Origin: Candidatus Cybelea sp.
GTDB lineage: Bacteria > Vulcanimicrobiota > Vulcanimicrobiia > Vulcanimicrobiales > Vulcanimicrobiaceae
Direction: 5' to 3'
DNA: 33,393 nucleotides
NCBI GenBank assembly: GCA_036489315.1
Contig: DASXFZ010000053.1
Span: forward strand, 1-33,393
Both the position numbers and the translations under genes were made by a program. Each line of letters begins with the position of its first letter. Positions within the stretch are counted from its first letter, which is position 1. The notes under the pieces were generated by a model, which worked only from the letters and a program-made list of their open reading frames with translations, did not search any database and was not told where the DNA came from. Of the stretch, positions 12,925-30,898 are shown piece after piece.

Positions 12925-14015
12925 TGCTCGTTCAAGAGTTCGCGAAGCACTGCGAAATTGCGTTCGGCAGCCTTTGCGATGACGTCGGCGCGCGCGCACA
13001 GCGCCGCCGAGAGCCCGTCGCGCTCGGTGACCAGCCGATCGACGAGTTCGTCGATCTGCCCGTCGGGCGGGCGCTGCGCGCCCGGCGTCCACAGCGGCTG
13101 CAGCGGATACTCGAGATCTTCGCAGAGTGCGCTCACCTTGGGATCGTACGGAATCGCCAGAAACGGAACGCCGTGCCGCGCGGCGAGGACCAGCGCGTGC
13201 AGGCGCATACCGATGACGACGCGCGCTTCGCTCAGGATCGCCGCCGCCTTTGCGAGAGAGCACTCGGGGAGCAGCACGGGAGCAGAGGCACAGGCGCGGA
13301 TAACGTCGGTCGAGATCGCCGCGTCGGCCGCGCCCCCGAGCGGCAGGAAGGCCGATCGAATACCGTGGCGCTCCGCCAAACGATCGACGGCGCGCGCCAC
13401 GATCTGCGGTGCGTCGCGCGATCCGGCGGAGCGCCGCACGCTAATAACCGCGTACGGCCCGCTCTCAGGGCCCAAACCCTCGGCCGAAAGATCGACGCCC
13501 GCTTCCGGCGACTCGTAGAGGAATACCGGATCGGCGGTCTGCTCGATCGGCGTCCTCGGCAGCAGTTCGCGCAGCAGCCGCAACGATCGTTCGTCGCGTA
13601 CGGTCGCGCGGTTCACGCCGCGGCAGAATCTTCGTACGAGCAATCGGCCCCAGAAGTCGAGCGGGCCGATCGACTGAGCGAAGATCATCGCCTTGCGCCC
13701 GGCGCGTACCGCCTCTCGCAGGATCGAGGCGTAGTAGAGCAGACTGCGCAGACTCGTTTGATTCTGCAGCAGCCCGCCGCCGCCGGAGAGCACGACGTCG
13801 GCACGGCGAATCGACTCTCGCACCGCGCGCCACTCCCAGCGTGGGGTCGCTTCGACTCGCAGTGAAGACTCGGTGCGCTGCGGCGTCGCCGAAAGCACCT
13901 CGATCGTCGCCGCCGGAAGCGTGCGCCGCACGCCCTCGACGATCACCTCGAGCAGCGCCTCGTCGCCCAGATTCCCGAAACCGTAGTAACCCGATACGAG
14001 CACGCGGGCGCTCAC
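12921..14015 (-). CDS. csaB: Polysaccharide pyruvyl transferase CsaB
   Basis: A 364-residue protein of the polysaccharide pyruvyl transferase family (PF04230). The N-terminus SGYYGFGNLGDEALLE, the middle DVVLSGGGGLLQN and AQSIGPL, and the C-terminal VIGMRLHALVLAARHGVPFLAI are the CsaB signatures. CsaB adds ketal pyruvate to a secondary cell-wall polymer, which is what SLH domains of S-layer and other surface proteins bind. It sits between a DUF5693 membrane protein and ileS with ATGA-type overlaps on both sides. No SLH-domain protein is in the window. Confidence 0.92.
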
Positions 14016-16009
14016 GGCTGCGCAGGCACGCGACGCCGGTAGATCCAGATCAGCAGCGCGCCGATGATGGGGCCGACGATCAATCCGTTGACGACGCGCA
14101 GCAGCGAGACCTCGATCGGCGTATGCAGATGGGAGAACGTGTCGATGACGTCACCGATTCCAACGCCGATAGCCAAGGCGAGCAGCCAGCCGACGGCACG
14201 ACGATGCGGCGGCAGCAGCGCCGGGAGCAGCATCATCGCGGGGAAGCCGATCAAAAACTCTTTGAAACGCGGCCGCACGCTGAGCGCCGCCGTGAGGAAA
14301 TGCCGCAACGCAAGCTCGATGGGAGAGGGCGAGATGTCGCTGTCGTTGCCGCTGCGCACGAGCATCAACGCGCCGGCCGCGACGATCGCGATCCCGCCCA
14401 AGAGCTGATACGCGAGCACCGGTGAGAGGAACACATCTCGCGGGCGTTCGATGCCCGAACCGAATCGCTGGTCGAAGAGGTACAGCACGAGCGCGATGAG
14501 CGGTGGAAGCGCCAGCACGAGCCGGACGCCGCGAAAACGCTCGATCTCTTCCATCGCAAGCGGCATGCTCATCAGCCCGACGACGACGAGCGCCCCGAGC
14601 AGCGCGACGCCGGTGGCCGCCACCGTCCAACCGAGGCTTCGCACGAGCTGCGTCCCAATGGCCGGAGCGGGCACCTCGCGCCAGGCGGGAATCAAAGTCA
14701 GCAGGGCCGCGGTCGCGAAGAGCAGCGCCCCGGCCAGCGCGATAGCCGAACGAGCAAAAGCATCGTGATGCGCGAGCAGGCCGCCAAGGTAGAGCGCGAC
14801 GGTCAACGCGTACGCGGCCGCGGCGATGCTGCGGCGATACCATCCGAAGAACTCGAGCAAGAGGATGAAGATCGACGGCACGGCGAGTGCTGCCAAGCCG
14901 ACGAGGATGCGATTGTTACCGCGATACTGCGGTATCGGTGTCGCGCGGCCGAGCCGCAAGCCGTCGGCGCGCAGCTCGTCGGCGATCCGTTTGACCATCT
15001 CGACGTTGGTCGCTTCGATCGAAAGGTTGCCGTCTTGGTGCGCCCACGGTCGCAGATAAACGACGCGAACGTTGCGTTCGCGCACGCCGAGAACGTATCG
15101 CGCGACGATCTCGTCGAGCTTGAGCTTGTCCAGCTCGGTCTTGGCGATCGCTTGGACGCGCACCGTCCGTCCCGGGATCAGACGCGCGAGGGTTTCACTC
15201 CCCTTCTGCACTTGGCTGGGATCGTACGTCTCGATCGAGCCGAAGTTAAAAATGTGCCGCTTGAATGCCGCGGCGGTATCCTCGAGGTGATCCGGATAAC
15301 CGACGACGGCGTTGCCGAGACCGAAGAAGATAACCGTCGAAACCTTCGGATCGTAGCGCAGTACGTCGTCGAAGAGCGCATCGATCTGCGGCGCCTTGAA
15401 GCGCTCGTCGTTTTGAAAGCGCGGCACGACGAGCAGCGCGAGACGGTGCGCCAGCTCGATCTGCCCGGTCGGAATCCCGAGGGCGACCGCATTGAAGTAG
15501 TCGACCTGCGTTCGCACCTCGATCAGCCACGGCCGCGTCGCTCGCAAGACGCGCACGCTGTTGCGACTGAAGTGCAGCGAAAGCTGCGAAAGGTAGCGAT
15601 GATAGGTCGATGGATCGGAGACGATCAGGTAGATCGCGCCGTCGTCGATCCGCCGGTTCGCGACCAGGCGCGCGAGCAGGGGGTCGCGGATCGGCGCAAG
15701 CCGCGCCTGATTGACTAGGGAAGCCCCGGTCGTGGCGTAGGCCTTGCCGTTGTTTCCGACGTTCGTCCCGAGCTCTTCGGTCAGCGCAAGCGACGTGAGG
15801 CCGGCGCGCCGCAGCGCGATCAGGAATGCGGCCGGATTGTAGTCGTAGGAACGCGCCAGTGCGTCGAGATCGGTAAAGTCCATGGCGAGCTCGACGCGCC
15901 GGGCGTGCGACTCGGTGCGTACGCGGAAGAAGGCGACGGCCAGCGAAGCGAGGAGCGCAACGAGTAAGACGACGGCCGCGTAGCGCGTTCTGGGAGTATA
16001 GAGCGTCAC
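14012..16009 (-). CDS. DUF5693 family membrane protein
   Basis: A protein of about 665 residues: one N-terminal membrane helix, a large extracytoplasmic domain (roughly residues 30-360, with LTSLALTEELGTN early on) and about seven to eight C-terminal membrane helices. This layout and its place directly before csaB are typical of the DUF5693 family, thought to act with CsaB in making or modifying a cell-wall polymer; the activity is unknown. I take the GTG at 16009 (VTLYTPRTRY then the first helix) rather than a frame reaching 16135, because the extra ~42 residues look like translated leader. No Shine-Dalgarno is visible before this GTG. The 3' end overlaps csaB by 4 bp. Confidence 0.8.
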   Translation of the reverse strand: MTLYTPRTRYAAVVLLVALLASLAVAFFRVRTESHARRVELAMDFTDLDALARSYDYNPAAFLIALRRAGLTSLALTEELGTNVGNNGKAYATTGASLVNQARLAPIRDPLLARLVANRRIDDGAIYLIVSDPSTYHRYLSQLSLHFSRNSVRVLRATRPWLIEVRTQVDYFNAVALGIPTGQIELAHRLALLVVPRFQNDERFKAPQIDALFDDVLRYDPKVSTVIFFGLGNAVVGYPDHLEDTAAAFKRHIFNFGSIETYDPSQVQKGSETLARLIPGRTVRVQAIAKTELDKLKLDEIVARYVLGVRERNVRVVYLRPWAHQDGNLSIEATNVEMVKRIADELRADGLRLGRATPIPQYRGNNRILVGLAALAVPSIFILLLEFFGWYRRSIAAAAYALTVALYLGGLLAHHDAFARSAIALAGALLFATAALLTLIPAWREVPAPAIGTQLVRSLGWTVAATGVALLGALVVVGLMSMPLAMEEIERFRGVRLVLALPPLIALVLYLFDQRFGSGIERPRDVFLSPVLAYQLLGGIAIVAAGALMLVRSGNDSDISPSPIELALRHFLTAALSVRPRFKEFLIGFPAMMLLPALLPPHRRAVGWLLALAIGVGIGDVIDTFSHLHTPIEVSLLRVVNGLIVGPIIGALLIWIYRRRVPAQP

Positions 16010-16026
16010 GAAGCGAGTCTGGTTCG

Positions 16027-16140
16027 CTCCGCCGAGGCCGTTTTTCTGCCTGGCGGCCCAGTGATTACAGAAGGGCTCGCCATGGGCGAGCCCTCCTGCC
16101 GTCGCGTATGCGCGAGTCCCTTTTTGTCGGGTCACGCATA
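16027..16140 (-). promoter_or_regulatory. Hairpin-rich leader before the DUF5693-csaB-ileS operon
   Basis: Read on the minus strand, three stems follow one another: TATGCG/CGCATA (16135-16140 with 16107-16112), a perfect 9-bp stem GGGCTCGCC/GGCGAGCCC with a 3-nt loop (16073-16093), and a CCGCC/GGCGG stem around a GGCCG/CGGCC alternative (about 16027-16055). A further AGCGA/TCGCT stem lies just before the GTG start. None is followed by a clean T-tract. It may be a leader controlling the operon or the end of the upstream crotonase transcript. Pairings are seen directly; function is inference. Confidence 0.35.
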
Positions 16141-21249: not shown

Positions 21250-22626
21250 ATGGGCGATCGAAATCGGTGCGTACGGGTTGTCTCGTTGGCGGCCCTCGTT
21301 TGCGCGGGTGCCGTTTCGGCCGCATTGGCGGGCTGCGGCGGCGGATCGGCGCGCTCGCCCGCGGCCCCTTTCCTGCCGCCGCCTCCGGCAAAGCAGGGTA
21401 AGCATTTCAAGCACATCGTCATCGTGATTCAAGAGAACCGCACCTTCGACAATCTCTTCGCCACCTTCCCCGGCGCCGACGGGACAACCGTGGGTAAAAC
21501 TCATAACGGCGGTACGCTGCGCCTTCGGCCGTCCAATCTCGAGAGTCCGATCTCGCCGAACAACGGCTATTCGTTCTGGCTGCGCGACTGGAACCACGGG
21601 AAGATGAACGATTTCGATATCGTGCCAATCGGACGAACGTCGGGAACGTACGTCTATCAGTACGTCCTGCCGGCGCAGATCCGGCCGTACTGGGACTTGG
21701 CCAAACAGTACGTGCTCGCCGATCACCTGTTTCAAACGCAAGGCAGCGGCAGTTTTACGGCGCATCAGGATTTGATTCGCGGCGACACGGCGATCAACTC
21801 GACATACAACCTTATCGATTTTCCTAGCGGCGGAGCGGGCCAGCCATGGGGCTGCGACGCGAATCCCGGCACCACAACCTCGCTGATCACGCAGAGCGGC
21901 CTATGGAAACAGTACCAGAACGCCGGGCCCTTTCCGTGCCTGACGTATCGGACGCTGCGGGACACGCTCGATGCGAAGAGCCTTTCCTGGCGCTATTACG
22001 CGCCGGCGGTCGGGGAAAGCTTCGGCGGAAACCTTTGGAACGCGTTCGACGCGATCAAGGCCGTCCGGTACGGGCCTGAATGGCAGACGAATCAAGCGAG
22101 CCCTGAGACGAAAGTCTTCACCGATATTCGCCGCAACACGCTCCCGGCCGTTTCCTGGGTAATACCCGACTATCAGAACTCCGATCACCCGGGCGACAAT
22201 TCAGATACGGGTCCCTCGTGGGTCGCGCAAGTCGTCAACGCCATCGGCGAGAGTCCGGCCTGGAAGACCACGGCGATCGTCATCGTGTGGGACGATTGGG
22301 GCGGTTGGTACGATCACGTGGCTCCGCCGGGCGAGCGAAGCTACGGCGGTTTGGGCTTCAGGGTACCGGCGATCGTCGTTTCGCCGTACGCGAAGATGGG
22401 TTACGTATCGCACGACGAGTACGATTTCGGCAGCATCATCAAGTTCGTGGAAGGGAACTGGGACCTACCCTCGCTGGGTACTTCGGACAAGAACGCTACC
22501 AGCTTCCTCGACGATTTTTTTGACTTTACGCAACAACCTCGCGCGTTCGTTCCCATCGGGTCCAAATACGCGAGAGCGTATTTCCTGCACCAGCGCCCCT
22601 CGAACCGGCCCGTCGATGATGAATAA
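21250..22626 (+). CDS. Lipoprotein phosphoesterase (PF04185), paralog 1
   Basis: A 458-residue exported lipoprotein (lipobox LAGC, Cys29) of the phosphoesterase family that includes phospholipase C and the acid phosphatase AcpA, in the alkaline phosphatase superfamily. Metal-site motifs correspond to those of AcpA: QENR (Glu62-Asn63), the nucleophile candidate Ser168 in GSFTAHQ, and Asp348-Asp349 in [11 protein letters not shown]; then [14 protein letters not shown]. It would hydrolyse phosphomonoesters or phospholipids at the cell surface. The C-terminus NRPVDDE is nearly shared with paralog 2. Start ATG at 21250, 68 bp from the divergent Sua5 gene. Confidence 0.9.
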
Positions 22627-22667: not shown

Positions 22668-24020
22668 ATGTCACGTGAATCACAACGGCAAACTCCGCCC
22701 GCATGGAAGAATGAGCCCGACGGCGAACAACAGTCCTGGGTTTATATGAGTACGCTTGAAAAAATCTCCGATTCCGGCCCACGCACGGCCCCGGCCGCGA
22801 TTGCCGCGCCTAATGCGCGCCCCGTCGCGGTGCCGGTCGTGCTCGCGGATTTCCAGCGAATTTTAATGACCGAGCCGCGCGGGCAAGACGAACTTAAACG
22901 CATTCAGGCACACTTCATGACGATCGCGCAGAGCGCGCGCAAAGGCTTGAAATCTCGCGAAGAGCGCGAGGAGCTCGCGCGTTTGATTACCGAGCGCATG
23001 GGGCGTTACGGCGCCTCGAGCCAGCACATCGCCCGGCGCCAGGTCAGCGTGCTGACGTCACGCTTCGTCGTTCCGAATCCCGAGAGCGAATACGAGACGA
23101 TTCGCAGCTACGGCGATCTGCGAGCCGCAACGGGAGAGGCGCTCGACGAACGCATGAGCCTTTTCGAAGAGATCGCGTGCGACATTTTCGAACGCGTCTA
23201 CGCCGATCCGAACGCGCAGCCTCCCGACGACATCGTGCACGTTAGCTGCTCCGGGTACATCTCGCCGAGTCCGGTGCAGACATTTCTCTCGCGTCGCAAG
23301 TGGCTTAACACCGGCGTCACGCATTCGTATCACATGGGATGCTACGGCGCGTTTCCAGCCGTGCGAACGGCGGTGGGGCTCGTCGGCTCGTCGTTCGACT
23401 CGCTGCCGAAGCGCAAGCGGCGCGTCGATCTCGTCCACACCGAGTTCTTGTCGCTGCACTTCGATCTGTTGGGCGACGAGCCCGATAATTTCGTAACGTC
23501 GACGCTTTTCGCCGACGGCTTCATCAAGTATGCGGCCTATCCGCAGACGGAGTTCGAACGCACCGAAGGCAACGGGCTCAAGGTACTGGCGATCGACGAA
23601 TACATTCTGCCCGATTCTCTGCCGGAGATGACGCTGCGTCCCGGGCCGCTGCAGTTCGATATGTCGCTCTCCAAGCGCGTGCCCTTCATGATCCGCGATT
23701 CGATCGCCGATTTCGTTACCTCGATCTGCGAGCAAGTCGGCCTCGATTTCGAGCGCGAAAAACATGCGATGACCTTTGCGATCCACCCCGGCGGCCCCGC
23801 GATCCTCAATCAGATTCGCAGCCGCCTCGGCATCGAGGAGTCGCAGATTGCACTGAGCCGCAAGGTTCTCTACGAGAACGGAAACATGGCCTCGGCCACG
23901 GCCCCCCACATCTGGCAGCTGATCGTCGACTCCGGCGAGATCCCCGTCGGCACGAAGATCCTCAGCATGGCTTTTGGGCCGGGCCTGACAGTAATCGGCG
24001 CGCTCTTCGAGAAGGTCTAG
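22668..24020 (+). CDS. Type III polyketide synthase (chalcone synthase-like)
   Basis: A 450-residue thiolase-fold condensing enzyme. The catalytic triad is visible as Cys225 (SYHMGCYGAFP), His373 (IHPGGPAIL) and Asn406 (NGNMASAT), with spacing very like chalcone synthase (Cys164, His303, Asn336). Bacterial homologues extend an acyl-CoA with malonyl-CoA to form alkylpyrones, alkylresorcinols or small phenolics; the product here is unknown. It has an N-terminal extension of ~60 residues; a later ATG at 22749 is an alternative start. It is followed after 8 bp by a sulfotransferase, pointing to a sulfated product. A KAS III identity is less likely because of the NGNMASAT and GCYG context. Confidence 0.85.
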   Translation: MSRESQRQTPPAWKNEPDGEQQSWVYMSTLEKISDSGPRTAPAAIAAPNARPVAVPVVLADFQRILMTEPRGQDELKRIQAHFMTIAQSARKGLKSREEREELARLITERMGRYGASSQHIARRQVSVLTSRFVVPNPESEYETIRSYGDLRAATGEALDERMSLFEEIACDIFERVYADPNAQPPDDIVHVSCSGYISPSPVQTFLSRRKWLNTGVTHSYHMGCYGAFPAVRTAVGLVGSSFDSLPKRKRRVDLVHTEFLSLHFDLLGDEPDNFVTSTLFADGFIKYAAYPQTEFERTEGNGLKVLAIDEYILPDSLPEMTLRPGPLQFDMSLSKRVPFMIRDSIADFVTSICEQVGLDFEREKHAMTFAIHPGGPAILNQIRSRLGIEESQIALSRKVLYENGNMASATAPHIWQLIVDSGEIPVGTKILSMAFGPGLTVIGALFEKV

Positions 24021-24028
24021 CCCCGACA

Positions 24029-25198
24029 ATGGCTACATCAGAAACGGCTAAGCCGCAAAAGTTTTCCGTTCCCGCTCCGTTTTATTGGAGCGTCCGCGGC
24101 GTTCACGCTGCAGCGCCCCTCTTCGTGGCGTTAGGGAACCTCGAATCCAAGATGCTGGAACGGCGCATCGCCACCCAGTCGATAGACCGGCCCGTCTACA
24201 TCTGCGGGCTTCCCCGAGCGGGGACGACGATCACGCTGCAGATGCTCAGCGAACATCCCGACGTCGTCACGCACAAGTACGCGGACTTCCTGATGCCGTA
24301 CATGCCGTACGTCTGGAATCAGGTCTTCCCGCGAATACCCGTCGACGCGATGCGCAAACCGGTGCCCCGCATTCACCGCGACCGCATCCAAGTGACGCGC
24401 GACAGCGCCGAGATGGGCGAGGAGATTCTCTGGGAGCACTTCTTCCCATTCATCCACGACGAAAGCAAATACAGCGTCCTCGACGGCTCGACTTCGAACC
24501 CCGGCTTCGAACGCTTCTACGTCGATCATCTGCGCAAGCTCGAGCTCGTTCGCGGCCGCACGCGCTATGTCAGCAAAGCGATCATGTGCGTCGTGCGCAT
24601 GCAGTACTTGCGCCGTCTCTTTCCCGACGCGCGCTTCCTGCTTTACGTGCGCAACCCGATCGATCACATTGCGTCGATGATCAAGCAGGATCGAATCTGG
24701 GCCGAGCTCGAGCGTGACGACCCGCGTCAGATCGAGATCATCGAGCTGACCGGCCATCACGAGTTCGGCCCGCATCAGGTTATGGCCAACGTCGGCAGCC
24801 CCGAGGTGCTGCACGAGATCCGCCGGCTCTTCGACGCGGGGCAGGTCGTCCAGTCGCGCGCTCGTTACTGGGCGTACGTCTACGGATTCATCGCGAGGCA
24901 GATCGCCGACGACCCGCAGCTCAAGGGGCGCGTCTGCGTCGTGCGCTACGAAGACCTTTGCTCGGACTCGCTGGCGACGATCGACCGTATCCTCGCGCAC
25001 ACGGGGCTCGCCCCGGAAGGCTTTGCCGCGACGCGCGAAGCGTACGGCAAGAAGCTCTCTTTCCCCGACTACTACAAGCCGGTCTTCAGCGCCGGGGAGC
25101 TCGCCGACATCACGGCGGTTACGAGTCCGGTCGCCGAGTCGTTCGGCTACGACGTCGGTTCGATCGCACAGCGAGCGAGCGCCGCCGCGGCGCCGTGA
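24029..25198 (+). CDS. PAPS-dependent sulfotransferase
   Basis: A 389-residue sulfotransferase-family protein. The 5'-phosphosulfate loop is ICGLPRAGTTIT (Gly60-Thr67 region) and the 3'-phosphate site is LLYVRNPIDHIAS (Arg208 region); YVSKAIM and VVRYEDLC are further conserved blocks. It resembles the Sulfotransfer_3-type enzymes that act on lipids or small hydroxylated molecules, and it has no signal peptide, so it acts in the cytoplasm. With the polyketide synthase 8 bp upstream the likely acceptor is the phenolic or hydroxyl product of that enzyme. Its TGA overlaps the GTG of the next phosphoesterase (GTGA). Confidence 0.85.
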   Translation: MATSETAKPQKFSVPAPFYWSVRGVHAAAPLFVALGNLESKMLERRIATQSIDRPVYICGLPRAGTTITLQMLSEHPDVVTHKYADFLMPYMPYVWNQVFPRIPVDAMRKPVPRIHRDRIQVTRDSAEMGEEILWEHFFPFIHDESKYSVLDGSTSNPGFERFYVDHLRKLELVRGRTRYVSKAIMCVVRMQYLRRLFPDARFLLYVRNPIDHIASMIKQDRIWAELERDDPRQIEIIELTGHHEFGPHQVMANVGSPEVLHEIRRLFDAGQVVQSRARYWAYVYGFIARQIADDPQLKGRVCVVRYEDLCSDSLATIDRILAHTGLAPEGFAATREAYGKKLSFPDYYKPVFSAGELADITAVTSPVAESFGYDVGSIAQRASAAAAP

Positions 25199-26568
25199 GC
25201 CTCACGCGCCGGGCCGTCGCAATTGCGGCCGGCGCGGCGCTTGCCTCCTGCTCGCGCGGCGCTGCGCCGCCCGCCGGTTTTGCGGCGCTGCCCGCGGCCG
25301 AATATCGCGCAGCCGCAACGCCGATCGAGCACATCGTCGTGGTGGTTCAAGAGAATCGGACCTTCAACGATCTCTTCGCAACCTTCCCCGGAACGGCCGG
25401 CACGACGATCGGAAGAGAGTTCCTCGATGGTGCGACGCGCCAAATCGCACTCGCCAAGGTGCATCTCGAATCTCCGAACACGCTGCGCCATACCTATCCC
25501 GCCTATAAGACGGCGTATCGCGACGGTAATATGGACGGCTTCAATCACATCATTTATCAGTCGACCGGTAAGCCGGAAGGCAGCGCACCCTATCAGTACG
25601 TCGACCCGAGCGATATCGCTCCGTACTGGGACATTGCGAAGGACTACGCGATCGCAGACCGCTTTTTCCAAACGCAAGGCAGCGGCAGCTTTACCGCGCA
25701 CCAAGATCTGATTCGCGGCGACACGCAGATCAGCGCTACGGAGAGCCTCATCGACGATCCCACGCTTTCCCCTTGGGGCTGCCCGGCCGAAAAGACCAGC
25801 AAAACCTCCCTCATCACGACCGCGCTCAAGTACGAGAAAAACAAAGGGCCGTTCCCGTGCACCTCGAGTTTCCCCGATGGTGGAAAGAACTACGCGACGC
25901 TCGCGGATCTGCTCGACGCGAAGGGCGTCTCGTGGAAATATTACACGCCGGCCTGGCGAGGCGAGACTGGATCGCACTGGAACGCGTTTCTCGCAATCTC
26001 GTCGGTTTACGGCAACTCCAAAGAGTGGAACGCGCACATATCGCAGCCGGAGAAAAACATCTTGGGCGACATCGATCGCGGCGCGCTGCCGTCGATGTCG
26101 TGGGTGATCCCCGACGGGATCAACTCCGACCACTCCGGATATCCGTCCGATACTGGGCCTTCGTGGGTCGCAAGCGTCGTCAACGCTATCGGCCGCAGCA
26201 AGTACTGGAAGTCGACCGCCGTCGTCATCCTCTGGGACGACTGGGGAGGCCTCTACGACGAGGTCGAGCCGCCGACGGTCGACCGCCAAGGCGGGCGCGG
26301 CTTCCGCGTTCCGCTGCTCGTCGTCTCACCCTACGTCGCGCGAAATAAGATCTCGCACACCACCTACGAGTTCGGCAGCGTCGTGAGGTTCATCGAAGAC
26401 ACGTGGAGTTTAGGGCGGCTCGGAACGACCGACCAGAGCTCGGCGAGCATCGCCGGGATCTTCGACTTCCATCAGACGCCGCGGCCCTTTATCGCGATTC
26501 CGTCAAGGCGCAGCCGAGCGTACTTCCTCAAACAACCGCCATCCGGCTTACCCGTCGACGACGAATAG
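25195..26568 (+). CDS. Lipoprotein phosphoesterase (PF04185), paralog 2
   Basis: A 457-residue protein closely related to paralog 1 in length and motifs: QENR (Glu53-Asn54), Ser165 in GSFTAHQ, Asp348-Asp349 in WDDWGG. After the Asp pair it reads GLYDEVEPP where paralog 1 has WYDHVAPP, so the His is replaced by Glu. The N-terminus (LTRRAVAIAAGAALASC) carries a twin-arginine-like RR and a lipobox with Cys19. The GTG start at 25195 overlaps the sulfotransferase stop, making it the third gene of the polyketide operon. It ends PVDDE, like paralog 1. Its stop is 5 bp from that of the convergent paralog 3. Confidence 0.88.
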   Translation: MSLTRRAVAIAAGAALASCSRGAAPPAGFAALPAAEYRAAATPIEHIVVVVQENRTFNDLFATFPGTAGTTIGREFLDGATRQIALAKVHLESPNTLRHTYPAYKTAYRDGNMDGFNHIIYQSTGKPEGSAPYQYVDPSDIAPYWDIAKDYAIADRFFQTQGSGSFTAHQDLIRGDTQISATESLIDDPTLSPWGCPAEKTSKTSLITTALKYEKNKGPFPCTSSFPDGGKNYATLADLLDAKGVSWKYYTPAWRGETGSHWNAFLAISSVYGNSKEWNAHISQPEKNILGDIDRGALPSMSWVIPDGINSDHSGYPSDTGPSWVASVVNAIGRSKYWKSTAVVILWDDWGGLYDEVEPPTVDRQGGRGFRVPLLVVSPYVARNKISHTTYEFGSVVRFIEDTWSLGRLGTTDQSSASIAGIFDFHQTPRPFIAIPSRRSRAYFLKQPPSGLPVDDE

Positions 26569-26573
26569 CGGCG

Positions 26574-27914
26574 TTACTGTTCGTCGGGAATTCGCGGGTC
26601 GGCCGGCTGTCTCAGGAAAAATTCGGCGTCCTGCGGAGCCTTGATGGGAACGAAGCTCCGTGGTTTCTGCGCAAAATTGAGACAATCTCCCGCAGGCGAG
26701 AGGGCGCGCGCATCGGCAGCGGACAGCTGGGGCAAGTTGAAAAGATCCTCGGCAAAACGAAGCACGCTCGCCGTTTCGTACTGCTTGTGCGAAATGTAGT
26801 TCTTCTTAGCGTACGGAGAGATCACGATCAGCGGCACGCGGAAGCCTAAACTGTCGTAGCCTCGAAACGGCGGCGGCACGTGCTCGTAGAGCCCTCCCCA
26901 ATCATCCCACTGCACGAAAACGACCGTCGAGTCCCAAAACTTGCTCTTGCCCACGGCGTTGACCAGCGACGTCACCCACGAGGGACCCATCCCGCCGCCG
27001 CACGAGAGATGGTCCGAGTCTTCGCACAGCGGCGTAATCCAGGTAAAGCTCGCCAAGTGCCCCGCCTTGATGTCGGTCAGAAACCGCTTCTGCGGCGTGA
27101 TCACGTCTTTCTTCCAGTCCGGTCCGTTAAAGATATGTTTGACGGCCTGATATCCGGACCAGAAACCACCCAACGGCTCGCTGTACGCACTCGTATAGAA
27201 GCGCCAGCTCAGGCCGGCGTCGTCAAGCTCGTCGCCTAGGGTCTTGTAGTCGAAGCAGGGGCGCTGATCGCCGTCATACTGGCGCTGATGATTGATCACC
27301 GAGACAGAATCGGTATAGGCGCCTTCGCAGCCCCACTGGTTGGAAGGAACGTCGACGCTGGAGTGCGCCTGGGCGGCGATGATGTACTGATGCGCGACGA
27401 AACTCTCATCGAGCTGCGAGGCGAACATTCGGTCGGCCAGAACGAACTCGTGGGCCATGTCGAAGTACGGTTTGCTCTCACTATGCGGAACGTACACGTA
27501 CTGTCCGTTATGCGGTCCACCTTCCTGAAATTCTTTATTGAAACCGTTCATGCGGCAGTGCGTCCCCGGCAGCTTCCCGGTGCCGTGGCACGCGCTGAAC
27601 ATCGCACGCGCCGAATGATCGATCTCGTAGGACACCTTCAGGCTTACCGGCTGCAGGACGATCTTCTGCCCCGTCGTCGTCATGCCGCTCGAAACGGTAT
27701 CGGCTCCCGGATAACCCTGGAACAGATTGTCGAAGCTGCGATTCTCTTGCACGATGTAGACGACGTGCTCGATCTTCCCGCTGCCGGTCGTCGCGGCCGC
27801 GCCGAAGGTACCCGCACTCGCAAGGGACGGCAGTGAGGAATGCAATCCCGTACCGCAGCCGCTTAACGAGAGCGACGACAAAGCCAGGATCGCAGCGATC
27901 CGCGTTGGGTTCAT
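26574..27914 (-). CDS. Lipoprotein phosphoesterase (PF04185), paralog 3
   Basis: A 446-residue lipoprotein (lipobox LSGC, Cys20) of the second subfamily: QENRSFDNLF (Glu57-Asn58), ESFVAHQ as the presumed nucleophile motif, QWDDWGGLYEHVPPP with Glu in place of the first Asp of YDHV, and FRVPLIVISPYAKKNY. A Cys-rich insert (FSACHGTGKLPGTHCRMNGF) and CEDSDHLSCGGG are shared only with paralog 4, which has the same length. Surface phosphatase or phospholipase; substrate unknown. The start at 27914 has AGAGG ~11 nt upstream. Confidence 0.9.
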   Translation of the reverse strand: MNPTRIAAILALSSLSLSGCGTGLHSSLPSLASAGTFGAAATTGSGKIEHVVYIVQENRSFDNLFQGYPGADTVSSGMTTTGQKIVLQPVSLKVSYEIDHSARAMFSACHGTGKLPGTHCRMNGFNKEFQEGGPHNGQYVYVPHSESKPYFDMAHEFVLADRMFASQLDESFVAHQYIIAAQAHSSVDVPSNQWGCEGAYTDSVSVINHQRQYDGDQRPCFDYKTLGDELDDAGLSWRFYTSAYSEPLGGFWSGYQAVKHIFNGPDWKKDVITPQKRFLTDIKAGHLASFTWITPLCEDSDHLSCGGGMGPSWVTSLVNAVGKSKFWDSTVVFVQWDDWGGLYEHVPPPFRGYDSLGFRVPLIVISPYAKKNYISHKQYETASVLRFAEDLFNLPQLSAADARALSPAGDCLNFAQKPRSFVPIKAPQDAEFFLRQPADPRIPDEQ

Positions 27915-29450: not shown

Positions 29451-30791
29451 TTACTGGGTATCGGGCATGCGGTCGTCGGCGGGCTGCTGCAAGAAAAACT
29501 GCGGCCCGTGCGGCGCATCGATCGGCACGAACTTGCGGGGTCTCTGCGAAAAATTAAGAGTGTCGGCCGCCGGCGAGGTTGCGCGCCGGTCGGCCGCGGA
29601 GAGTTGAGGCAATCCGAAAAGATCTTCGGCGTAACGCAGCACGCTGCCCGTTTCGTACTGCACGTGCGAAACGTAGTTCTTCTTCGCATATGCAGAAATC
29701 ACGATCAACGGCACGCGGAACCCGACCCCATCGTAGCCTCGGTGGGGGGGCGGCACCGGATCGAACGTCCCGCCCCAGTCGTCCCACTGCACGAAGATCA
29801 CCGTTGAGTTCCAGAATTTACTCTTCCCGACCGCATTGACCAGCGAGGTTACCCACGAGGGCCCAAATCCGCCGCCGCACGACATGTGATCCGAGTTCTC
29901 GCACGTCGGCGTGATCCAGGTAAAGTTTGCCAGCTTACCCGCCGCTACGTCGGTGAGGAATTTTTTCTGGGGAACGATGATGTCCTTAGGCCAATCGGGC
30001 CCGCGGAAGATGTGCTTTACCGCCTGATATGACGACCAGAACCCGGCCAGCGGCTGAGAGTATTTGCCGGTATAAAAACGCCAGGAGAGACCCGCCGCGT
30101 CCAGCTCGTCTCCGAGCGTTTGATAGTCGTAGCAGGGGCGTTGGGTACCTTGTATCGTTCTCTGCCGCGTGATGATCTCGACTCTGTCGCCCGGCGCGGC
30201 TGCACACCCCCAGGCTCCGCTGGGAACGTTTACGCTCGACTGCGCCTGGGCGGCGATAATGTACTGATGCGCGACGAAGCTTTCATCGAGCTGCGAGGCA
30301 AACATCCGATCGGCCAAAACCCATTCGTGCGCCATATCGAAGTACGGCTTCGATTCGGAGTGAGGAACGTAGACGTATTGGCCGTTTGGAGGGCCGCTCT
30401 CTTGAGTCTCTAGGTTGAAGTGATCCATACGGCAGTGGGTCCCCGGCAGCTTACCCGTGCCGTCGCACGCAGCGAACATCGCGGCGGCGGTATGGTCGAC
30501 GTCGTACACGACTTTGAGGCTCACGGGCTGCAGCTTGATCGTCTTGCCCAGGGAGTTCTTGCCGCGCGATACCGTATGGGCGCCGGGGTAACCCATGAAC
30601 ATGTCGTTAAAGCTGCGGTTTTCTTGGACGATGTACACGACGTGCTCGATCTTGCCGGCACCGGCCGCCGAACTGCCCGTCAGTTTGAGAGCAGCCGAAG
30701 CATAGGGCAGCGTCGCGGGCCGATAACCGCTCGAGCACGCGCAAACGGCCGCGCAGGAGAGCAAGCCGAGCGCGCCGCGATAATCTTTCAT
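29451..30791 (-). CDS. Lipoprotein phosphoesterase (PF04185), paralog 4
   Basis: A 446-residue sister of paralog 3: QENRSFNDMF, ESFVAHQ, the Cys insert (AACDGTGKLPGTHCRMDHF), CENSDHMSCGGG and VGFRVPLIVISAYAKKNY all match it. The metal-site region reads QWDDWGGTFDPVPPP, keeping the Asp pair but replacing the later His by Pro. The ATG at 30791 gives a signal sequence with a lipobox-like VCAC (Cys19); a frame reaching 30866 would add 25 residues without signal features and run into the upstream terminator. A weak AGAGAG lies ~16 nt upstream of the ATG. Confidence 0.88.
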   Translation of the reverse strand: MKDYRGALGLLSCAAVCACSSGYRPATLPYASAALKLTGSSAAGAGKIEHVVYIVQENRSFNDMFMGYPGAHTVSRGKNSLGKTIKLQPVSLKVVYDVDHTAAAMFAACDGTGKLPGTHCRMDHFNLETQESGPPNGQYVYVPHSESKPYFDMAHEWVLADRMFASQLDESFVAHQYIIAAQAQSSVNVPSGAWGCAAAPGDRVEIITRQRTIQGTQRPCYDYQTLGDELDAAGLSWRFYTGKYSQPLAGFWSSYQAVKHIFRGPDWPKDIIVPQKKFLTDVAAGKLANFTWITPTCENSDHMSCGGGFGPSWVTSLVNAVGKSKFWNSTVIFVQWDDWGGTFDPVPPPHRGYDGVGFRVPLIVISAYAKKNYVSHVQYETGSVLRYAEDLFGLPQLSAADRRATSPAADTLNFSQRPRKFVPIDAPHGPQFFLQQPADDRMPDTQ

Positions 30792-30826
30792 CGCGATCGA
30801 ATTTGTGCTCTCTGCAAATCGATTCC

Positions 30827-30898
30827 CTTTAAAAGAAATGGGCCCGCCGAAGCGAGCCCATTTCAATCGGTCCGTACCGATTTACACCGTCGCGGTGT
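30827..30898 (-). terminator. Triple hairpin ending in a UUCG-loop terminator
   Basis: Starting 4 nt after the lipoprotein stop, the minus strand forms three hairpins: ACACCG/CGGTGT (30884-30898), AATCGGT/ACCGATT with a 4-nt loop (30865-30882), and GAAATGGGC-x-CGC-TTCG-GCG-x-GCCCATTTC (30835-30864), followed by TTTT. The last has a cUUCGg tetraloop and a T-tract and is a clear intrinsic terminator. The two hairpins before it are unusual and may stabilise the 3' end. Confidence 0.85.

Follow-up and report, generated by a model that had tools for sequence, protein, structure and literature searches.

Why should a type III polyketide synthase (PKS), a sulfotransferase (ST) and a lipoprotein phosphoesterase of family PF04185 lie so tightly packed in the genome of a soil bacterium? 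The genes in question occupy positions 22668-26568 of a 33,393-nucleotide stretch of Candidatus Cybelea sp. DNA (contig DASXFZ010000053.1, the whole of which we call the window), and the original prediction read them as a trio that makes a sulfated polyketide lipid inside the cell and processes it outside. Here, we find that the conserved unit is the PKS-ST pair, not the trio. From the genes, we judge it probable that PKS and ST together form a cassette by which a sulfated type III polyketide lipid is made; its substrate, ring type, sulfation site, export and function we infer. The host belongs to the phylum Candidatus Eremiobacterota and has a genome of 3.09 Mb (95% complete); the orthologous contigs come from Candidatus Eremiobacterota metagenome-assembled genomes (MAGs), several of them named 'palsa', and the relatives compared are largely MAGs.

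The strongest evidence for the pair is its distribution. Of 149 genomes of the phylum, 19 (in three of 70 genera) have an orthologue of the PKS, and precisely these 19 also have one of the ST, the two genes lying within 76 bp of each other every time. By genus counts alone, and with genera taken as independent, the chance of two genes falling in the same genera is 1 in 54,740. Three congeneric genomes (completeness 63-85%) have neither gene, and in a fourth genus there is a remote type III PKS alone (G081), without an ST match. Beyond the phylum, a single contig scan for PKS relatives gave 80 loci, and outside Eremiobacterota an orthologous ST stands beside the PKS in only two: L055, from an Acidobacteriota MAG (Candidatus Sulfotelmatobacter; PKS 49% and ST 58% identical to those of the window), and L056, from a Chloroflexota MAG (47% and 44%, respectively). 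Among 396 Acidobacteriota and 400 Chloroflexota genomes sampled, the ST was found once in each phylum, in these same two loci and in no others; the pair is therefore rare and has probably spread by transfer. The original prediction was to fall if the genes were neighbours in this genome only, which for the pair is not the case. A looser parallel is seen in a Polyangia MAG (Myxococcota), where positions 4857-9350 of L087 carry an AMP-ligase-ACP gene, a more distant ArsB/C-type PKS (Trp form, see below) and, after 4 bp, a different PF13469 ST.

The synthase itself is well placed. Its best match in the PDB is ArsC of Azotobacter vinelandii (3vs8/3vs9; E 4e-88, residues 57-450; 38% identity), the next match reaching 6e-20. 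The catalytic triad of the thiolase fold (Cys225, His373 and Asn406) is complete and invariant among the orthologues, and a conserved second Met, at 22746, is a possible start. The original prediction had pointed to alkylresorcinol and alkylpyrone synthases for comparison, and in the tree the enzyme does fall inside the ArsB/C-type set, where the ST-linked PKSs form one clade (support 96/92). In ArsB and ArsC, one residue (Trp281 and Gly284, respectively) steers ring closure, aromatic bulk leading to a resorcinol and a small residue to a pyrone (PMC6274091, a review). The alignment places Leu323 of the window PKS at this position, so that neither the Trp nor the Gly by which the two are told apart is present, and the enzyme would therefore be a relative of both and an orthologue of neither. 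Leu stands here in all aligned Eremiobacterota PKSs and in those of L055 and L056, against Trp in nearly every other PKS of the ArsB/C type; outside the clade of the pair, the exceptions are Gly in ArsC copies, Glu in L062 and Leu in the second tandem copy of Beijerinckia. As the ST-linked PKSs form one clade, the Leu may go back to a single event. Furthermore, because the residue is Leu and not Trp, an alkylpyrone is the better guess, and the sequence thus suggests this as the product. A strict rule that Leu marks an ST-linked PKS fails, since the second Beijerinckia copy has Leu and the ST-linked PKS of L087 (Myxococcota) has Trp. The tandem ArsB/C-type PKSs of Beijerinckia mobilis (L061, 7001-9597), with Trp in one copy and Leu in the other, parallel ArsB and ArsC of Azotobacter. 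The host of the window itself has a second, distant type III PKS on contig C10 (L038, 9390-10427), with no recognised ST beside it.

The ST carries the motifs GLPRAGTT (at residue 60) and VRNPIDH (at residue 207), and no signal peptide was seen in it. A Foldseek search with its model (predicted local distance difference test, pLDDT, 78) returned sulfotransferases as all of its top matches, weakly (template-modelling score about 0.4-0.5), among them tyrosylprotein sulfotransferase, STF9, STF1 and the olefin-synthase ST, and the best sequence match in the PDB is about 1e-5 (single sequence) or 3e-9 (profile). In the pathway that we favour, the ArsB/ArsC-type synthase would lengthen a long-chain fatty acyl starter by malonyl units, and ring closure would most likely give an alkylpyrone; the cytosolic ST would then move sulfate to a ring hydroxyl from 3'-phosphoadenosine-5'-phosphosulfate (PAPS), which the CysN-CysC fusion of the genome would supply, and the product would be an anionic amphiphile destined for the envelope. 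An AMP-ligase-ACP gene lies directly upstream of the PKS in L056 and L087, which points to a fatty-acid starter. There is also a biochemical precedent for a PKS-ST pathway, in that AdpST sulfates alkylresorcinols in vitro (PMC12135136).

Gene content, catalytic residues, the gene overlap described below, the strict co-occurrence of PKS and ST and the phylogeny are direct observations; several points nevertheless weigh against the reading built upon them. The product and the ST acceptor are read from genes and not from chemistry, and the acceptor is not fixed by homology, because the characterized sulfotransferases are only distantly related. The effect of Leu on ring closure is a proposal, the same residue being found in the second Beijerinckia copy, and the ring type may vary, since the divergent ST-linked PKS of L087 has Trp. 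Within the window, the pair has no starter-loading gene next to it, and the taxonomy of L055 and L056 rests on MAG binning.

The pairing of a type III PKS with an ST is already known, and the view that no such system had been described does not hold for this half of the locus. In rv1371-rv1372(pks18)-rv1373 of Mycobacterium tuberculosis, a lipid-modification operon, a long-chain type III PKS (an alpha-pyrone synthase) is followed after 5 nt by an ST (PMC13141999). However, Pks18 is far from the window PKS (E 1e-13, against 4e-88 for ArsC), and a predicted desaturase stands upstream where the window has a PF04185 gene. Rv1373 was assayed as a glycolipid sulfotransferase, which raises the question of whether the ST of the window might likewise modify a substrate unrelated to the PKS product, the two genes being neighbours through shared regulation only. 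The ST has no close characterized homologue, as such an explanation would allow; but the exact co-occurrence in 19 genomes, and the retention of the pair in three phyla with differing neighbours, make it quite unlikely.

A second precedent is the adp cluster of Streptomyces davaonensis (adpPKS-adpST-adpP1-3), which makes the sulfatostatins: a type III PKS and a PAPS-dependent ST share one operon, and a sulfated phenolic lipid has been demonstrated (PMC12135136). The likeness is in the kinds of gene; unlike the window, the adp operon contains its own PAPS genes and no PF04185 gene, and its product is an alkylresorcinol. The cpz (caprazamycin) and tot clusters also hold both kinds of gene. The closest characterized PKSs, those of arsABCD in A. 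vinelandii, come from a locus with no ST and have Trp or Gly, not Leu, at the ring-closure residue.

The layout of the three genes is as first described (Table 1). The PKS stop (24020) and the ST ATG (24029) are separated by 8 bp, the GTG start of PE2 at 25195 overlaps the ST stop (25196-25198) in the sequence GTGA, and the Cys-His-Asn triad is in place. The original prediction was right about the three genes and missed PE1, the two PF04185 genes on the minus strand and the many copies elsewhere in the genome. PE1 shares the strand of the PKS and ends 41 bp before it, and the unit therefore reads PE-PKS-ST-PE, the four genes forming an apparent operon. A promoter scan of the locus gave no sigma-70-type site. 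No dedicated PAPS genes were found at the locus, and the likely PAPS source is a single CysN-CysC fusion on another contig of the genome. Elsewhere in the window (14012-16135) lies a gene for a large DUF5693 (PF18949) protein, a homologue of which is also found near the PKS locus in L031.

Table 1. Genes of the locus and its PF04185 neighbours (positions in the window); lipoproteins were called by lipobox pattern and not by a signal-peptide predictor.
Feature	Position	Strand	Details
PE1: PF04185 phosphoesterase, predicted lipoprotein	21250-22626	+	PF04185 E 3.8e-59; lipobox LAGC; first gene of apparent operon
Type III PKS, ArsB/ArsC type	22668-24020	+	PF02797 E 9.5e-19; Cys225-His373-Asn406; Leu323; alternative start 22746
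PAPS-type sulfotransferase (ST)	24029-25198	+	PF13469 E 5e-23; PAPS-binding motifs; predicted cytosolic
PE2: PF04185 phosphoesterase, predicted lipoprotein	25195-26568	+	PF04185 E 6.5e-54; lipobox LASC; start overlaps ST stop
PE3: PF04185 lipoprotein, convergent neighbour	26574-27914	-	PF04185 E 3.5e-49; lipobox LSGC; probably outside operon
PE4: PF04185 lipoprotein, neighbour	29451-30866	-	PF04185 E 6.2e-47; lipobox VCAC; probably outside operon

How firmly, then, do the PF04185 lipoproteins belong to the pathway? The host genome holds 59 matches to the family in its 3.09 Mb, many in tandem. In the genus of the host, the count is 21-69 candidates per genome, varying with completeness, and it reaches 42 and 62 in two genera that lack the pair, against 1-23 in other families of the same class; the expansion is lineage-specific. 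Each of the 15 genomes of genus g1 has a PF04185 gene as the immediate 5' neighbour of the PKS, and the PKS side carries one in 18 of the 19 loci, in 17 of them on the same strand. PE1 forms a clade of its own in the tree and looks orthologous within g1, with other subclades at this site in genera g34 and g13. On the 3' side of the ST, a PF04185 gene is present in all 14 g1 loci whose contig reaches that far, drawn from at least three subclades; in L044 and L053, it is the second of the downstream copies, rather than the first, with which the PE2 of the window groups. There is none after the ST in g13 or g34, nor any flanking the pair in L055 or L056. The array is thus real and local, with a changing membership. 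The change of subclade after the ST rules out a fixed trio, and the 59 copies rule out adjacency of a PF04185 gene as strong evidence. These copies, the differing gene after the ST among relatives and the lack of any PF04185 gene beside the pair in other phyla make the family a weak partner, with a positional and unproven link to the sulfated-lipid pathway.

The likely chemistry of these proteins points the same way. The motifs Q51-E52-N53 (QEN) and W346-D347-D348 (WDDxGG) are invariant in 20 PF04185 copies. The best structural matches of a PE2 model (mean pLDDT 69; of middling quality, as is the ST model) are PLC-N and AcpA, with E of about 1e-20 against about 1e-5 for sulfatases, and a Pfam search of PE1-PE4 found PF04185 only, with no match to PF00884 (sulfatase). 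Model and sequence point to extracytoplasmic enzymes of the phospholipase C/acid phosphatase type rather than to sulfatases. The original prediction had a PF04185 lipoprotein process the sulfated lipid outside the cell, which it might do as a sulfohydrolase or sulfate transferase. In its favour are the GTGA overlap, the constant presence of a PF04185 gene after the ST in readable g1 loci, the alkaline-phosphatase superfamily to which the family belongs, and the lack in the Eremiobacterota clade of any arylsulfate sulfotransferase (ASST) for the job. However, with the turnover and absences after the ST, the number of copies in this genome, the large expansions in two genera without the pair, a fold that matches sulfatases far less well, and five PF00884 sulfatase-family genes elsewhere in the genome, such processing seems highly improbable. 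The intracellular half of the proposal, an ArsB/ArsC-type PKS with a dedicated PAPS-type ST, remains coherent.

Another conceivable role would be the sparing of phosphate, the phospholipase C-type lipoproteins stripping phosphate from phospholipids and the sulfated polyketide lipid serving as a phosphate-free anionic replacement. The nearest relatives of the PF04185 proteins and the PF04185 gene on the PKS side in nearly every genome are consistent with this, as is the finding that the ArsB/ArsC lipids of Azotobacter replace membrane phospholipids in cysts (PMC4824345). Nevertheless, no phosphate-regulon gene was recognized in the window, genera g10 and g33 have an expanded PF04185 family but lack the pair, no PF04185 gene accompanies the pair in other phyla, and the specificity of these proteins is itself predicted; we regard the idea as unlikely.

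The loci outside Eremiobacterota offer a different partner. In both, an exported ASST (PF05935; E 3.5e-42 and 4.4e-49) adjoins the pair: in L055, it is a lipoprotein encoded divergently, and in L056, it has a signal-like N-terminus and lies two genes downstream, with a methyltransferase between. A flanking ASST was found in none of the other loci among the 80 ArsB/C-type loci scanned. The two genomes have only three (L055) and four (L056) ASST genes, and a rough estimate puts the chance of one falling within 3 kb of the pair at 0.5% and 0.8%. The motifs HHD/E, D-W-T-H-x-N, R-H-Q and Q-H, which we take to hold the ASST catalytic residues, are conserved, and a sequence search of the L055 ASST against the PDB gave no match. 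Two of the three ASSTs in the L055 genome lie within about 11 kb of the pair. The upstream part of the contig holds a cluster for surface polysaccharide, its genes including Wzi, Wzz, glycosyltransferases, a Wzt_C-bearing ABC exporter and a further ASST. In this Acidobacteriota MAG, two ASST lipoproteins (L170, 11659-13239; L055, 4858-6444) flank part of that cluster.

These neighbourhoods raise the possibility of sulfation in two steps, which is compatible with the cassette that we favour: a sulfated pyrone or phenol lipid would be, instead of the final product, a membrane-borne sulfate donor, from which an extracytoplasmic enzyme passes sulfate to an acceptor such as a surface polysaccharide. 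Caprazamycin biosynthesis uses a PAPS-dependent ST to sulfate a triketide pyrone, which then feeds an ASST (PMC4257720), and the Leu site of the present PKSs suggests a pyrone. The cpz cluster has the same kinds of gene as L055 and L056 (type III PKS, PAPS-dependent ST and ASST), although it is an actinobacterial antibiotic cluster, and neither the window nor the host genome has an ASST. Indeed, a PF05935 protein was found in none of the 19 pair-bearing Eremiobacterota genomes, host included; an ASST as the missing partner in the host is ruled out, the second step would need another enzyme there, and the carrier reading is therefore a mere possibility for the window. Moreover, the association rests on two loci, both from MAGs, and the PKS-ST locus of L087 in Myxococcota has no ASST in its flanks. 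By analogy, a sulfated lipid may export sulfate from the cell, and two-step sulfation is a possibility that we hold tentatively. More doubtful is its extension to a general sulfate-export route, of which caprazamycin would be a special case: the dispersed cassette would make a sulfated alkylpyrone that carries sulfate across the membrane, and enzymes outside the cytoplasm would pass it on to surface polysaccharide, the ASST doing so in Acidobacteriota and Chloroflexota and some other enzyme in Eremiobacterota.

In summary, although the pairing itself was known from pks18-rv1373, adpPKS-adpST, cpz and tot, what is new is a separate ArsB/C-type lineage of it in Eremiobacterota, marked by Leu at the ring-closure residue and strict in the co-occurrence of its two genes, together with the ASST beside the pair in two other phyla; among the papers searched, none was found on this PKS-ST lineage. 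The probable cassette would place a conserved sulfated-polyketide-lipid pathway, recognizable by an active-site marker, in a largely uncultured phylum of soil and permafrost. Furthermore, if the link to the ASSTs is true, it would answer the question of where these extracytoplasmic enzymes, beyond the reach of cytosolic PAPS, obtain their aryl-sulfate donor.

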